From positions 620,001-684,000 of the forward strand of contig JACRLZ010000002.1 in assembly GCA_016235125.1 (NCBI GenBank): 64,000 nt of DNA, in the 5' to 3' direction. Position 1 is the first letter of the stretch. The number at the start of each line of letters is the position of its first letter. This stretch comes from Sphingobacteriales bacterium (GTDB taxonomy: Bacteria > Bacteroidota > Bacteroidia > Chitinophagales > Chitinophagaceae). Below are positions 7,733 to 13,341 of this stretch, piece by piece. Both the position numbers and the translations under genes were made by a program. The notes under the pieces were generated by a model, which was not told the DNA's origin, did no database searches, and saw only the letters and a program-made list of their open reading frames with translations.

Positions 7733-10700
7733 TTATACTGTCATCACCTGCACATCCAACTCCGGCTTCTTTTCCAGGAAATGGATCATCTCTTCGTTCA
7801 TTTCAAAGCCGTTGTTCATGGAAAGCAGGCTGATTCTCATTTTTTTCCCGGGTTCAGTCAAAGTAAACTTCAAGGTGGACTTGCCGGGATGATGTTTCAT
7901 GTTTTTCTCGAAAAAACTTACAACATCCTTATTGATGTCTTGCGGATGGGCTTCAATCACCAACTGTTTTGTCAGTTGTTTTTTCATCGTCTCTGCCAGC
8001 GATACCGTCATTACTTTAAATTCAAATTCATCTTTATTGAAGCGCTGTTTATAGAATCCGGTAATAAAAACCGTGCTGCCTTGTTGCAGAAAAGGGGACA
8101 TGCGTAAATAATCTTCGGTGAATAAAAGAATTTCTGTTTTGCCGGAATAATCTTCGATCACAAAATTTCCATATTTATTTCCGCTTCTTGCTATTTTATG
8201 TTGCGCATCGGCTACCAACCCAAGCAAACGGAATGGCCTGTTTGGATTAGGATGCATACGGATGGCTTCTTTAAATTCATTAAAGTCGGCCAGCGGAGTT
8301 ACATTATAATGTTTCATTTCAAACCGGTAATGATCCAGCGGATGACCGCTGATGAACATGCCGGTAACTTCTTTTTCCCTGTCAAGTTGTACGGTCAGTG
8401 GCCAGGGATCGCATTTGGGAAGTTGTGGCGGAGGAATTTCCATGGTGATGGGCAGATCGCCAAACAGGGTATTGGCAGTGCTTGCATTTTGTGTCGCAAT
8501 AATTTGTCCATATTTAATTACTCTCTCAAGTCCATTGATCGTTTCCCCTTCGGGTGTTTGAAAATACTGCGCCCGGTGATATTCTTTAAAACAATCAAAC
8601 GCCCCGGCATAGGCAAGACTTTCCAGTGTTTTTTTATTGACTGTTCTGTGATTGATGCGTTTGATGAAATCAAATATGGTTTTAAAGTTGCCATTCTTTT
8701 GTTTTTCTGAAATAATGCTTTCCACTGCAGCTTCACCAACTCCTTTTAATCCCCCCAGACCAAAACGGATTTCTCCTTTATCATTTACTGCAAAACCTTT
8801 TTGCGATTCATTAATATCCGGCCCAAGCACTTTTAATCCCATCCGCTTACACTCTTCCATGAAAAAAGTGATCTTTTCAATGTTGCCGGCATTGTTCAAC
8901 ACTGCTGACATGTATTCAGCCGGATAATGAGACTTGAGATATGCAGTTTGATAAGCCACATAGGCATAGCAGGTGGAGTGAGCTTTGTTGAAGGCATATT
9001 GCGCAAATGCTTCCCAGTCTGTCCATATCTTTTCCAGTTTTTCAGGAGGGAATAATTTTTCAGTAGCGCCGCTGATAAACTGTGCCTTCATTTTGTCAAG
9101 CACAGACTTTTGCTTTTTGCCCATTGCTTTACGCAATACATCTGCATCACCTTTGCTGAAACCGGCCAATTTTTGCGCCAGCAACATTACCTGCTCCTGG
9201 TAAACGGTAATGCCATACGTTTCTTCAAGATATTCCTGCATCTCGGGCAGATCATAAGTGATCGCTTCACGGCCATTTTTGCGGTCAATATAATTGGGAA
9301 TGTATGCGATGGGGCCCGGACGATACAAGGCATTCATCGCAATCAGGTCGCCGAACTTATCAGGTTTTAATTCTCTTAGATATTTCTGCATCCCCGCACT
9401 TTCAAACTGGAAAGTGCCGATGGTGGAACCGTGCTGGTATAGTTCAAATGTTTTTTTGTCGTCAAATGGAATTTTATCAATGTCAATTTCCACTCCATGA
9501 TTTTGTTTTATCAACGCCAGTGCATTTTTGATAATCGTCAATGTTTTCAATCCAAGAAAGTCCATCTTGATAACACCGGCTTCTTCAATGATGTTTCCTT
9601 CGATCTGTGTTACCCAGAGATTGGAATCTTTTGCTGTAGCAACAGGAATTAATTCTGTCAGATCTTTGGGAGCAATGATGATTCCTGCGGCATGTATGCC
9701 TGTGTTTCGTACAGAACCTTCGAGCCTTTCTGCTTCATGCAAAACTTTTCCCGCAAGTGAGGTATCCTGCTTATAAATTTCTCTCAGTTTTTTTGCGTTT
9801 TCAATATCGTCATTGCCCAGGCCATCTTTTTCTTCCAGCGATTTTTCGCCGTCTTTTATTTTTAAAGGAGCATGCAACACTCTTTTCAATTCAATCCCCG
9901 GACGTTCAGGAACAAGTTTGGCCAAGGCATTTGATTCCGGTAATGGCAGATCCATAACCCTTGCCACATCCTTAATACTCATTTTTGCTGCCATGGTGCC
10001 GTAAGTGATGATCTGTGCCACCTGGTTTTTTCCATATTTATCAACTACATAGTCAATCACTTTCTGCCGGCCTTCATCATCAAAATCGGTATCAATATCC
10101 GGCATTGATTTACGATCGGGATTCAGAAATCTTTCAAACAGTAAATTGTATTTGATGGGGTCAATATTGGTGATGCCGATGCAATAAGCAACAACAGAAC
10201 CTGCAGCTGAACCACGACCTGGCCCGATATAAACATTTCTGTCCCGGCCTGCTTTAATAAAATCACTTACAATAAGAAAATAACCAGCGAAGCCCATTGT
10301 TTTGATGGTGAATAATTCAAAACGGATTCGTTCATCCAATTCACTGGTGATCTCAGGGTATCTTTTTCTTGCACCTTCCCATGTGATGTGTTCCAGATAT
10401 TCATCCTGTGAAGAGAATTCCTTTGGAACAGGAAAGAAGGGAAGAAGTATTTCTCTTTTCAAATCGAGCAGATCAATCTTGCCAACTATCTCATTGGTGT
10501 TCTCAATCGCTTCCGGCAAATCTTTGAACACTTTACCCATCTCTGCAGTTGTCTTGAAGTAAAACTGGTCGTTGGGAAAAGCAAAGCGTTTGTCTTTTAC
10601 ATGCACATCGTCATCGGTGAATTCACGCAGGGCAGGGGTCGCCACTTTTTCCCCCGTATTAATGCAAAGCAAAATATCATGAGCATTGAAATCGCTTTGT

Positions 10701-11353
10701 TCCACATAATGCGAGTCGTTACTCGCAATGATCTTTACATTGTATTTGCGGGCCAGTTTTACCAGCACATCATTCACCTTGTCCTGTTCGGGCATTCCAT
10801 GGCGCTGCAATTCCACATAATAATCCTGCTGAAAAACATTCAGCCACCATTTAAATTCATTCTCGCCTACTTCTTCTCCTTTTTTCAAAATAGCCTGGGG
10901 AACCATAGCGCCGAGGCAGCAAGTTGTTGCAATTAATCCCTCATGATATTTCAGGATAAGTTCTTTATCAATTCTGGGATACTTGCTGTACATGCCTTCA
11001 ATAAAACCGAGTGATGTCAGCTTGATAAGATTCTTATAACCCTGTTCATTTTTTGCCAGTAATATCTGGTGATGCCGGGGGTCCCTCTGGTCTTTGGTAA
11101 ACGTTTTTTGATGACGGTCGGTGGTAATGTAAAATTCGCAGCCCACTATTGGTTTTACTTTCAGGCTGCCATCTTCATTTTTATGTTTGTAAGCCTCAGC
11201 TACAAATTCAAAAACGCCGAACATATTGCCATGGTCGCTGATGGCCAACGCCGGCATCGCATCGTTGATTGCTTTTTTATAAAGGTTTTGAATAGAAGCA
11301 GCTCCGTCAAGAAGGGAGAACTGGGTATGTACATGGAGATGGGAAAATTTCAT
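7733..11353 (-). CDS. dnaE: DNA polymerase III subunit alpha
   Basis: This is the catalytic subunit of the replicative polymerase, 1206 residues, as usual for DnaE1. An N-terminal PHP domain (FSHLHVHTQFSLLDG, ISDHGNM) is followed by the palm with GPGRGSAAGS (377-386) and the catalytic aspartates in MPDIDTDF (418-424), then MDFLGL with the third acidic residue, helix-hairpin-helix sequences, and a C-terminal OB-fold (FRLLGLVADAQ...GNFVIEDYSG). All key residues are present. The first 13 codons and 32 bp upstream are duplicated at 12031-12103, on the far side of the DUF4160/DUF2442 pair, so this gene's leader may have been rebuilt. The immediate upstream DNA (11386-11458) is short and has no clear promoter. 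Confidence 0.96.
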   Translation of the reverse strand: MKFSHLHVHTQFSLLDGAASIQNLYKKAINDAMPALAISDHGNMFGVFEFVAEAYKHKNEDGSLKVKPIVGCEFYITTDRHQKTFTKDQRDPRHHQILLAKNEQGYKNLIKLTSLGFIEGMYSKYPRIDKELILKYHEGLIATTCCLGAMVPQAILKKGEEVGENEFKWWLNVFQQDYYVELQRHGMPEQDKVNDVLVKLARKYNVKIIASNDSHYVEQSDFNAHDILLCINTGEKVATPALREFTDDDVHVKDKRFAFPNDQFYFKTTAEMGKVFKDLPEAIENTNEIVGKIDLLDLKREILLPFFPVPKEFSSQDEYLEHITWEGARKRYPEITSELDERIRFELFTIKTMGFAGYFLIVSDFIKAGRDRNVYIGPGRGSAAGSVVAYCIGITNIDPIKYNLLFERFLNPDRKSMPDIDTDFDDEGRQKVIDYVVDKYGKNQVAQIITYGTMAAKMSIKDVARVMDLPLPESNALAKLVPERPGIELKRVLHAPLKIKDGEKSLEEKDGLGNDDIENAKKLREIYKQDTSLAGKVLHEAERLEGSVRNTGIHAAGIIIAPKDLTELIPVATAKDSNLWVTQIEGNIIEEAGVIKMDFLGLKTLTIIKNALALIKQNHGVEIDIDKIPFDDKKTFELYQHGSTIGTFQFESAGMQKYLRELKPDKFGDLIAMNALYRPGPIAYIPNYIDRKNGREAITYDLPEMQEYLEETYGITVYQEQVMLLAQKLAGFSKGDADVLRKAMGKKQKSVLDKMKAQFISGATEKLFPPEKLEKIWTDWEAFAQYAFNKAHSTCYAYVAYQTAYLKSHYPAEYMSAVLNNAGNIEKITFFMEECKRMGLKVLGPDINESQKGFAVNDKGEIRFGLGGLKGVGEAAVESIISEKQKNGNFKTIFDFIKRINHRTVNKKTLESLAYAGAFDCFKEYHRAQYFQTPEGETINGLERVIKYGQIIATQNASTANTLFGDLPITMEIPPPQLPKCDPWPLTVQLDREKEVTGMFISGHPLDHYRFEMKHYNVTPLADFNEFKEAIRMHPNPNRPFRLLGLVADAQHKIARSGNKYGNFVIEDYSGKTEILLFTEDYLRMSPFLQQGSTVFITGFYKQRFNKDEFEFKVMTVSLAETMKKQLTKQLVIEAHPQDINKDVVSFFEKNMKHHPGKSTLKFTLTEPGKKMRISLLSMNNGFEMNEEMIHFLEKKPELDVQVMTV

Positions 11354-11385
11354 AACTCACAAAGTCATTAAATCAGACTAATCAG
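11313..11385. repeat. dnaE 5'-end direct repeat, gene-proximal copy
   Basis: Seventy-three bases covering dnaE codons 1-13 and 32 bp upstream match 12031-12103 with 8 mismatches and no gaps (about 89% identity). This is the copy that belongs to the intact gene. Confidence 0.85.
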
Positions 11386-11458
11386 GAGCGATAAAAAAGG
11401 GAATTATTCCAACATTTTTTCAACAAAGAACTTCGGTATTTATAACATTCAAGGCACT

Positions 11459-11773
11459 TTAAGCAGCGAGGGTATCCTTTTTTACCATATTCAATAATTC
11501 ATCCCGTAAAAAACCTTTCAGGCTCAGGTCTTCATCAAGAAGCGGCCAATGAATGCCTGTGCCGTCCCCAATTAATTCAAAATGCAGCAAAGATTTTTTA
11601 TCTGCCTCCTTTAATCGTTTGTAAGAAGATATTTTTTGGCGCAGCACTGCCTTTGTATTTAAGATAATAAGCATTACATCCAACTCAGGATGGATGTCAA
11701 CGGTTTCAATAGATACGCCGTCGTCATAAATAATTTTCTCTATTGAATCAAAATTATTTGCCGAAGTATTCAT
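11459..11773 (-). CDS. DUF2442 protein of a DUF4160/DUF2442 pair
   Basis: This 104-residue protein carries the DUF2442 C-terminal signature, here GIHWPLLDEDLSLKGFL; the N-terminal part is less typical. DUF2442 genes are habitually paired with DUF4160 genes and are often predicted to be toxin-antitoxin-like, with the DUF2442 member the likely antitoxin or DNA-binding partner; this is a prediction, not a known activity. It overlaps the end of the DUF4160 gene by 20 bp, indicating coupled translation. The pair lies between two copies of the dnaE 5' end. Confidence 0.75.
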   Translation of the reverse strand: MNTSANNFDSIEKIIYDDGVSIETVDIHPELDVMLIILNTKAVLRQKISSYKRLKEADKKSLLHFELIGDGTGIHWPLLDEDLSLKGFLRDELLNMVKKDTLAA

Positions 11774-11993
11774 GCCATTTGTCTTTAAATAATTGTATGT
11801 TATCGGTTGTTATCTGCCAAACAGAATTTTCTTCCTGTTTTGTAAATCCCAACATCCATGCAATTTGTATTGCCGGTTCCAACCAGATTTTACCTTCACC
11901 CTTTCCTTTTCTTACATGAATGTGTGCCGGTTCATTATTTTCATTGCTGTAAAAGAAAAACCGGAAACCATTCAGGAAAAGGACTGTTGGCAT
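11754..11993 (-). CDS. DUF4160 protein
   Basis: This complete 79-residue DUF4160 protein has the diagnostic run NEPAHIHVRKG followed by GKIWLEP. The biochemical role of the family is not established; its pairing with DUF2442 and its mobility suggest a toxin-antitoxin-like or stress module. The start ATG at 11993 lies 15 bp downstream of the end of a 20-codon reading frame left from the duplicated dnaE start (12009-12071), so the old dnaE leader may now drive this pair. Confidence 0.8.
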   Translation of the reverse strand: MPTVLFLNGFRFFFYSNENNEPAHIHVRKGKGEGKIWLEPAIQIAWMLGFTKQEENSVWQITTDNIQLFKDKWHEYFGK

Positions 11994-12008
11994 TTTCTCA
12001 AAGTTAAA

Positions 12009-12071
12009 TTATTTATTCCAGAATAAATACAGGGAAAACTGGGTATGTACATGCAGGTGGGAAAACTTCAT
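12009..12071 (-). pseudogene. Truncated dnaE 5' remnant (20 codons)
   Basis: Reading from the ATG at 12071 gives MKFSHLHVHTQFSL, the exact first 14 residues of DnaE, then six unrelated residues and a TAA at 12009-12011. The match stops abruptly and the DUF4160 gene starts 15 bp later. If translated, it would be a short leader peptide for the DUF4160/DUF2442 pair. Confidence 0.8.
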
Positions 12072-12103
12072 AACTCACAAATTCATTAAGTCAAACTAGT
12101 CAG
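12031..12103. repeat. dnaE 5'-end direct repeat, distal copy
   Basis: This is the partner of 11313-11385, in the same orientation, 718 bp further upstream. It contains the remnant start codon and the 32 bp that precede it. Mismatches are scattered and within the coding part are synonymous. Confidence 0.85.
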
Positions 12104-12132
12104 ATAAGTCATATTGGTCAAAAATTTGCTGT

Positions 12133-13341
12133 TCAATCTTTCTTTTTAAAAGTAAAAACGGTTATTGAACCACTGTAACTGCAAACCCAGGCTTCCAGTT
12201 TATTATTGTCTTCAAACACATCCACACCAACCGGATGACCCGGGCATGGCAAAGATGCTATTTTCTCAAAGTTGTCAGCATTGATTTTGTACACATCCAC
12301 ATAATCGCTGGTGTAGCAGGTTACAAAAATGAATTTGTAATTTTTGGAAAGTACAATTGTTCTTGGTTGGGAATGAGTGGAGGCAGTGAATAATGACTTT
12401 CCTGTTTTTGCATCCAGGCAGGCAATAGTGGCAAGACTGTTGTACGAAACGAAAATATGGCCGCTGGGATCCATCACAATATGCCGGGGGCTGCTCCATA
12501 CATTCAGAACCGTATCAGCTTTCCATGTATTGTTATCAATCACCGCAAGGCTGGAACCACCCATAATGGCGATGTAGGATTTTTTATTCCCATCATCCAC
12601 TGCAATTCCTCTTGGAATAGCTGAAACGGGAACAGTACTAATAATTTTTCCGAAGGGATAAACTTTATCATCCATTTCCAGCACACTTACATTTCTGGAA
12701 TGCCAGTTACTTACCAGCAAGTGTTTGCTGTCAGTAGTTCTCGCAATTACTTTTGGGGTCTTGCCTGTTTCGATCAACGGTACCCGAAAAGAATCTCTCT
12801 TATTTGTTTCAGGATAAATAACAGTTACCGGTTTTGTTTTCTGTTCTTTTGAAATGGTTCCGGTATTTTTTGAAATATCATCCACCCAAATCGGAACTAA
12901 ACCTTCAGCATTATGGAGCGAGACCCAGAGAATTTTATCATCATGGCTAAGGCAGGCTTCCACCGGTTTTTCCTGGAATGAAGCAATGGGTCTGCTTCGG
13001 GCATAATCCCAACCCATTCCTCTGGTAGGAGTGAATTTAAATTCCCTTGATATTTTTTTTGACTCCCGGTTAAATTCATACACACTCATTCCTTCGAGGT
13101 TCATGGCATATAACTTGGAGCCGGATGAATTAAATAATACTGATTTGGTACCGGGAGCTGAAACAAGCACTTCTTTGTCTTTATACTTCAGCTCATCATA
13201 CGGCTTTATTTTTTCAGGCTTGGTTGAATCAATTAAAGATTTTTGTGGTAAAGCTTCAACAGTTATTTTATTACTGCTGCCCGAACTTTGACAGCCGGTT
13301 GTAAAAAGAAATATTGTGATGATGGAAAGGATGGCCTGCAT
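12133..13341 (-). CDS. Lipoprotein with YVTN/YncE-like beta-propeller
   Basis: This 402-residue predicted lipoprotein has a lipobox ending FLFTTGC (Cys17). The rest is repeated blade sequences such as GKTPKVIARTTDSKHLLVSN, IPRGIAVDDGNKKSYIA and SPRHIVMDPSGHIFVSY, the pattern of YVTN-type propellers (YncE-like). Such proteins are usually periplasmic or surface-exposed and bind ligands rather than catalyse; the ligand is not evident. The gene stands alone; its stop is 29 bp before the distal dnaE remnant repeat. Confidence 0.75.
   Translation of the reverse strand: MQAILSIITIFLFTTGCQSSGSSNKITVEALPQKSLIDSTKPEKIKPYDELKYKDKEVLVSAPGTKSVLFNSSGSKLYAMNLEGMSVYEFNRESKKISREFKFTPTRGMGWDYARSRPIASFQEKPVEACLSHDDKILWVSLHNAEGLVPIWVDDISKNTGTISKEQKTKPVTVIYPETNKRDSFRVPLIETGKTPKVIARTTDSKHLLVSNWHSRNVSVLEMDDKVYPFGKIISTVPVSAIPRGIAVDDGNKKSYIAIMGGSSLAVIDNNTWKADTVLNVWSSPRHIVMDPSGHIFVSYNSLATIACLDAKTGKSLFTASTHSQPRTIVLSKNYKFIFVTCYTSDYVDVYKINADNFEKIASLPCPGHPVGVDVFEDNNKLEAWVCSYSGSITVFTFKKKD

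Follow-up and report, generated by a model that had tools for sequence, protein, structure and literature searches.

The 5′ end of dnaE occurs twice in the window analysed here, a stretch of 64,000 nt from a Sphingobacteriales bacterium (contig JACRLZ010000002.1, positions 620,001 to 684,000), and a gene pair of the DhiTA type of type II toxin–antitoxin (TA) module lies between the two copies. We classify the arrangement as a TA cassette that has no transposase of its own and whose insertion goes with a duplicated host-gene end, in the manner known for restriction-modification (R-M) systems. For this locus we lean towards a history in which the 645-bp cassette, at the junction between dnaE and its upstream neighbour, a lactonase/YncE-like beta-propeller gene (called lac here), lies between a displaced partial dnaE 5′ end and the intact dnaE, and in which the duplicate arose later by import recombination. 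This reading builds on the anatomy of the locus, on the single dnaE 5′ ends of relatives, on direct repeats at many TA modules, just under half of which carry a convincing host-gene end, and on a second case with empty-site relatives.

The dnaE locus and its counterparts in relatives

The direct repeat comprises positions 11313–11385 and 12031–12103, that is 73 nt at a spacing of 718 bp, and the copies are 89% identical (65/73) without gaps. Because dnaE is intact on the minus strand (7733–11353, 1206 aa, an open reading frame (ORF) aligned with relatives), the inner copy at 11313–11385 is the functional one. The outer copy at 12031–12103 (minus strand) is a remnant made of 32 bp of upstream sequence and 41 bp of coding sequence, and its reading frame still runs through 14 dnaE codons, then six more and a stop codon (MKFSHLHVHTQFSLYLFWNK-stop, 20 codons, 12009–12071 on the minus strand as counted from the translation), ending 15 bp ahead of the DUF4160 start codon. 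On the minus strand the order is thus lac (12133–13341; Pfam Lactonase, 2e-07), outer copy, DUF4160 gene, DUF2442 gene and dnaE with its inner copy, all genes from lac to dnaE being co-oriented. Between the copies, the 645-bp segment 11386–12030 holds the gene pair and short spacers. The first gene (11754–11993, 79 aa) encodes a putative DhiT-like toxin with the PF13711 domain (E 5.4e-15, 55.8 bits against a cut-off of 23), and the second (11459–11773, 104 aa) a putative DhiA-like antitoxin with PF10387 (E 1.3e-11, 45 bits against a cut-off of 23.9). The toxin gene precedes the antitoxin gene and overlaps it by 20 bp; by domains, order and overlap the pair is of the DhiTA type.

A search of the whole 3.6-Mb genome (E ≤ 0.001) found the 73-bp repeat at two places only, with E-values of 4.8e-32 and 1.8e-21. 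Moreover, when 205 positions spread over the window were scanned with one fixed geometry, the dnaE repeat scored 96.9 bits and was the sole one above 42, the next reaching 41.9. A chance origin of the repeat was rejected by the genome search together with the mismatched-pair and random-position controls given below. Hence the initial annotation, made from the letters of the window, was right in its description: a same-strand duplication of 73 bp with eight mismatches and no gaps, a single DUF4160/DUF2442 pair between the copies, as the two Pfam profiles show, and a dnaE-coding remnant facing an intact gene, as seen from the translation and the ORF.

Of 42 genomes in the genus, 39, with this one among them, yielded the start of dnaE, and we inspected 30 loci, this one and those of 29 relatives. 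A peptide scan of the same strand over 1.5 kb upstream of dnaE detected a second dnaE 5′ end in none of the 29 relatives. The lac gene is a frequent neighbour of dnaE in the genus, lying within 1.5 kb upstream in 19 of the 29, and in 17 of these it ends 15–189 bp ahead of dnaE, which leaves no room for the pair; in the other 10 relatives no lac match was present in the 1.5-kb upstream stretch. In line with the initial annotation, which had predicted one 5′ end joined to the ancestral upstream DNA, these 17 pair-free relatives have a single 5′ end next to the same upstream gene. The two exceptions among the 19 are G005, with a DUF2442 gene in the spacer, and G015, with a gene of the PDDEXK_3 family (PF13366, which we take to be the GxxExxY family) at L026:1987–2370 on the minus strand, near which a short stretch recurs in inverted orientation. 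The lac–dnaE junction has the look of a landing site for small genes.

The DUF2442 antitoxin gene is present in two of the 42 genomes, this one (G000) and G005, both times at the lac–dnaE junction, with 109 and 108 bp, respectively, between its end and dnaE, and the two antitoxins are 81% identical. In G005 (L020, oriented positions 1050–1500) the antitoxin gene is an orphan, the toxin being reduced to its last codons right after the lac stop codon, and the junction has no duplicated dnaE 5′ end. The synonymous divergence of the two antitoxin genes is about that of dnaE and lac (fourfold identity 0.37, 19 codons), and for this reason the shared position of the pair looks old. A recent direct transfer between G000 and G005 is unsupported, the synonymous sites of the antitoxin genes being as divergent as those of the neighbouring genes. 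A first dnaE tree left G000, G001 and G005 without a resolved order; a tree of six genes (3455 columns) grouped G005 with G061 (100/100), so that a sister relation of G005 to G000 is unsupported. Because G061 has no pair, losses or old transfers must have happened.

The duplication itself appears to have another age. In the 32 bp upstream of the start codon the inner and outer copies agree at 28 positions, compared with at most 14 of 32 between either copy and any of the 29 relatives (aligned without gaps from the start codon). Hence the duplication probably arose long after the pair took up its shared position, unless the likeness of the copies is due to gene conversion. The initial annotation had proposed an insertion at the 5′ end of dnaE that duplicated this end. 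The part that stands is that a duplicated end encloses the pair; however, the duplication need not date from the arrival of the pair, since G005 carries the antitoxin gene at the same junction without a duplicate and the non-coding parts of the two copies resemble each other far more than this genome resembles any inspected relative there.

As to expression, a scan of 11300–12250 for promoters and terminators gave one promoter-like site (3.0 expected) and one terminator-like site (0.6 expected), no excess over shuffled sequences. In 7 of the 29 relatives no more than ∼20 bp separate the end of the upstream gene from dnaE, and for this reason transcription of dnaE may well begin further upstream. 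Read-through from lac is likely, and the coupling of the pair to a dnaE promoter that the initial annotation proposed is hypothetical.

Direct repeats around toxin–antitoxin modules

We collected loci with a gene similar to this DUF4160 toxin, part of them being the best 80 of 521 relatives, and looked for direct repeats whose two copies lie on either side of the toxin gene. After removal of 4 duplicates and 5 loci with short flanks from 112 tested, 103 remained (L011, a partial match, was left out), and every one of them has a DUF2442-like gene downstream. A repeat of at least 58 bits was present at 19 of the 103 with the narrower upstream window, and with the wider one 20 were flanked, the dnaE locus included. 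Mismatched upstream and downstream flanks gave none of 309 at 50 bits (highest 32.8), and of 268 random positions drawn from the flanks of 67 of these loci, one reached 50 bits or more (narrower window). For comparison, ParE loci taken from the same order were flanked in 9 of 27 cases (30 loci, less 3 with short flanks), two of which, L151 and L152, look like one insertion in two genomes; mismatched ParE pairs (n = 108) reached at most 28.3 bits. DUF1801, a patchily distributed family that is not of the TA kind, was flanked at none of 28 loci (30, less 2 with short flanks). By Fisher tests the differences amount to 1e-10 (DUF4160 versus random positions), 0.005 (DUF4160 versus DUF1801) and 0.0007 (ParE versus DUF1801). 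A mechanism specific to DUF4160 was rejected, as ParE loci are likewise flanked. The initial annotation would have been contradicted by a pair that elsewhere never goes with such duplications; what we found is flanking repeats at 19 of the 102 further loci, and a convincing host-gene end at nine of the 20 with dnaE included.

The repeats of the DUF4160 and ParE loci are 38–285 bp long. Over the 29 flanked loci of this main set each repeat is private to its locus, apart from the orthologous L151 and L152 and from chance words of 11–12 bp, and because of this privacy the main-set repeats are, by sequence comparison, host DNA and not ends of the element. In 18 of the 29 an ORF continues from the repeat into the DNA on the side facing away from the pair. 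We regard the host gene as convincing in 13 of the 29, nine at DUF4160 loci (dnaE among them) and four at ParE loci; 12 of these have a duplicated 3′ end, and dnaE is the sole case of a 5′ end. Pfam searches on ten host genes gave nine matches and one blank, the matches being a BatD-like protein, a mannosyltransferase (below the cut-off), ribonucleotide reductase parts, the RNase P protein, 3-hydroxyacyl-CoA dehydrogenase (3HCDH), a regulator with a helix-turn-helix domain, aconitase, a thiamine pyrophosphate (TPP) enzyme of the acetolactate-synthase type (read from three TPP domains) and another TPP enzyme.

The dnaE locus and L008 are the two flanked loci that were examined for empty sites, and both have relatives with a single-copy empty site. 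For L008 we compared seven loci from six relatives. At the empty site of G110 and G140, a hairpin with a T run stands directly 3′ of the gene end. In G052, where the site is occupied, the pair begins 14 bp after the end of the intact gene, and behind it comes a second gene end of 47 bp, followed by the native hairpin. This arrangement mirrors that at dnaE. In two relatives, L292 and L293, a second match of 29 and 32 bp occurs ∼1 kb or more beyond the first; it is weak and partial, and we take it as chance.

A phylum-wide sample gave a softer figure. It consists mainly of one distant family with many DUF4160 copies per genome; 40 of its 70 places were hand-picked from a list, one of them already being in the sample, and 55 loci were left after removal of 12 without a tblastn toxin match, 2 duplicates and 1 with a short flank. 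We found 15 of the 55 flanked, a number to be read with caution because 3 of 220 mismatched pairs match too and 8 of the 15 repeats are common to several loci. The antitoxin profile detected no partner in these 55 loci, and the two checked with Pfam have DUF2442. The distant family has up to 15 DUF4160 matches per genome among the matches listed, and its shared repeats fall into two groups (L211, L213, L223 and L227; L218, L219, L235 and L237), which may represent orthologous loci, tandem cassettes or dispersed repeats. With regard to integron cassettes, the comparison was one of repeat similarity: the main-set repeats are private and those of the phylum set partly shared (8/15), but attC sites can differ widely in sequence.

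Some further occurrences of the module were noted. Among 5426 E. coli genomes, five match the pair (L208, L300, L301, L302 and L303), four with the pair and one with an antitoxin part only; all five matches lie inside an integrating conjugative element, and the comparison of occupied and empty sites was uninformative there. In L303 the antitoxin gene alone is annotated as such, and an IS4 element lies behind it. In Serratia rubidaea (L131:5516–5600) a DUF4160/DUF2442 pair adjoins a stretch that matches E. coli hemW, with no flanking repeat at the threshold. Relatives of the toxin also occur on 38 plasmid records, and among the eight listed six are plasmids of 3.4–3.7 kb, five of them from Aeromonas.

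Import and in-place copying as origins of the duplicate

The simplest account of the anatomy is a single entry in which a 73-bp target was copied in place, as proposed for R-M genes, the outer copy having drifted since; we consider it possible, though not probable. In this case the copies are identical at birth and the outer one drifts, whereas imported copies would differ from the start as working alleles do. The repeat lengths of 38–285 bp also fit the ‘order of 100 bp’ given for R-M systems (PMC3874152). Set against it is the age relation at dnaE: G005 shares the position of the insertion, yet the duplicate looks far younger than the split between G000 and G005. The differences between the copies bear on the same question. 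We pooled 12 loci with convincing host genes, hand-chosen from the 18 of 29 that could be assigned, leaving out L152 as the orthologue of L151 and L147, L060, L126, L058 and L066 with their doubtful frames, and counted 45 synonymous and 37 non-synonymous differences. The non-synonymous share is below that expected from decay in place (P 2e-6 to 0.03, varying with the transition/transversion weight, 1 to 6, and with the constraint assumed), which suggests that part of the divergence between copies predates the event. With all 18 loci the counts are 51 and 52, with one stop codon in the other copy of L060. In-place copying would need gene conversion to reconcile the age of the duplicate with these synonymous data.

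Several observations weigh against import as the source of the dnaE duplicate. At L151 and L152, where two genomes have the insertion in one position, the outer copies diverge with amino-acid replacements and the functional copy is nearly unchanged, which is just what in-place duplication predicts; thus the pooled synonymous excess speaks against copies identical at birth, and this decay in place speaks for them. The pair of loci also provides a natural record of how such a remnant decays. Gene conversion between the copies could also keep them young. For dnaE alone, the eight differences between inner and outer copy comprise four in the 32 bp upstream and four coding ones, all synonymous, and four synonymous against no non-synonymous changes is weak and not decisive (P 0.02 to 0.11). 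Moreover, in the coding part the copies agree at 37 of 41 positions, no closer than the nearest relatives do (36–37/41), and the fourfold count behind the old position of the pair is small (19 codons). We found neither a pair-free strain of this species nor a donor allele. In the survey, 83 of the 103 DUF4160 loci have no repeat at the threshold, and at 11 of the 29 flanked loci no host gene extends beyond the repeat.

Other explanations are improbable to varying degrees. The 20-codon remnant may have been retained as a translated leader, linking translation of the toxin to the start signal of dnaE, and its open frame, its purely synonymous changes and its stop codon 15 bp ahead of the toxin start agree with such a role. 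The initial annotation had seen in these changes a sign of a kept leader or a recent event; the four differences are indeed synonymous, but with four coding changes only the argument is weak for this locus, and the copy is present in one of the 30 inspected dnaE loci, this one, so that there is no relative for comparison. We consider a leader improbable. Less weight still goes to a gene-regenerating element whose attL and attR are the 73-bp copies and which a tyrosine recombinase moved in trans. It would account for direct repeats of a host-gene end that restore the gene, as in islands of this kind; yet the 645-bp insert, to which the search was confined, holds no integrase, its ORFs being those of the pair only, no attachment core is shared over the 29 loci beyond words of 11–12 bp, save in L151/L152, and the repeats vary from 38 to 285 bp in length. 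On the same two grounds, an insert without a recombinase gene and repeats without a common core, site-specific integration in general was judged unlikely. Equally implausible are an assembly error and an ordinary segmental duplication that has nothing to do with the pair: the locus is known from a single genome with no second strain, but it lies in the interior of a 1.08-Mb contig of a nine-contig assembly, its copies differ at eight positions, and flanking repeats recur at TA modules of other genomes far above controls.

We thus return to import as the favoured source of the dnaE duplicate, mainly because the duplicate looks younger than the position of the pair. The pair would have been long resident at the lac–dnaE junction in some lineages. 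Later, in this lineage, DNA carrying the pair and a dnaE 5′ end would have recombined with a pair-free dnaE allele; such a recombination between occupied and empty alleles probably took place, and we infer that homologous pairing on the dnaE side together with an illegitimate join at dnaE codon 14 left the 5′ end of the recipient as the outer remnant. The gene would have stayed intact because a 5′ end came in with the imported DNA. Exact loss of the pair would be possible through the direct repeats, and the toxin would penalise such loss. Across loci, the general balance between import and in-place copying is left open. More tentatively, and with rather more doubt than belief, we suggest that chromosomal TA modules may be transposase-free mobile units which travel with a host-gene end: imported with the homologous end and joined by host recombination, they would let the gene survive, and their repeats would allow them to be excised exactly, at a cost imposed by the toxin. 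In this view dnaE, rnpA, ilvB and other core genes would act as homology tags among related genomes.

Comparison with known systems

To our knowledge, it is an open question how solitary chromosomal TA modules without their own transposase or integrase spread. Direct repeats, often with a host-gene end, are a scar found at between one fifth and one third of the modules sampled. This scar marks insertion sites, enables comparison with empty alleles and makes the target-copying and recombinational-import models separately testable. Essential genes can serve as landing sites, because the end of the gene is supplied again. Among the open-access papers listed by literature searches we recognised none that describes TA pairs with a long target duplication or flanking repeats, which is a weak negative.

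Gene-regenerating genomic islands insert at gene ends by means of tyrosine recombinases, and the duplicated end restores the host gene. The dnaE locus resembles them in this restoration and, unlike them, has no recombinase gene in the insert and no common attachment core.

The same two Pfam domains, with the toxin gene first, occur in DhiTA of Dickeya dadantii and in a plasmid module of Thermus, as far as the accessible parts of the two reports go. The toxin of Dickeya is a growth inhibitor, and the promoter of the operon is repressed by the complex (PMC8198452). The Thermus plasmid gave no transformants without the second gene, and both genes together improved plasmid persistence (PMC12724237). 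Neutralisation of toxicity by the partner is thus reported for these relatives and not for the present pair (PMC8198452, PMC12724237). Unlike the dnaE locus, they are described for toxicity or plasmid upkeep, and the accessible parts of the two papers do not mention flanking duplications.

A further likeness is to R-M systems, for which insertion with a long, variable target duplication is known (PMC3031569, PMC3874152, citing Nobusato et al. 2000 and Furuta et al. 2010). Here, too, the repeats are long, variable and private to each locus, and relatives have a single-copy empty site. Both are selfish complexes without a transposase of their own, with long variable direct repeats (of the order of 100 bp for R-M systems) and an empty site in relatives. 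Unlike in R-M insertions, a type II TA pair forms the cargo here, a convincing host-gene end is part of the repeat at 13 of the 29 flanked loci, and the pooled differences between copies suggest a divergence partly older than the event.

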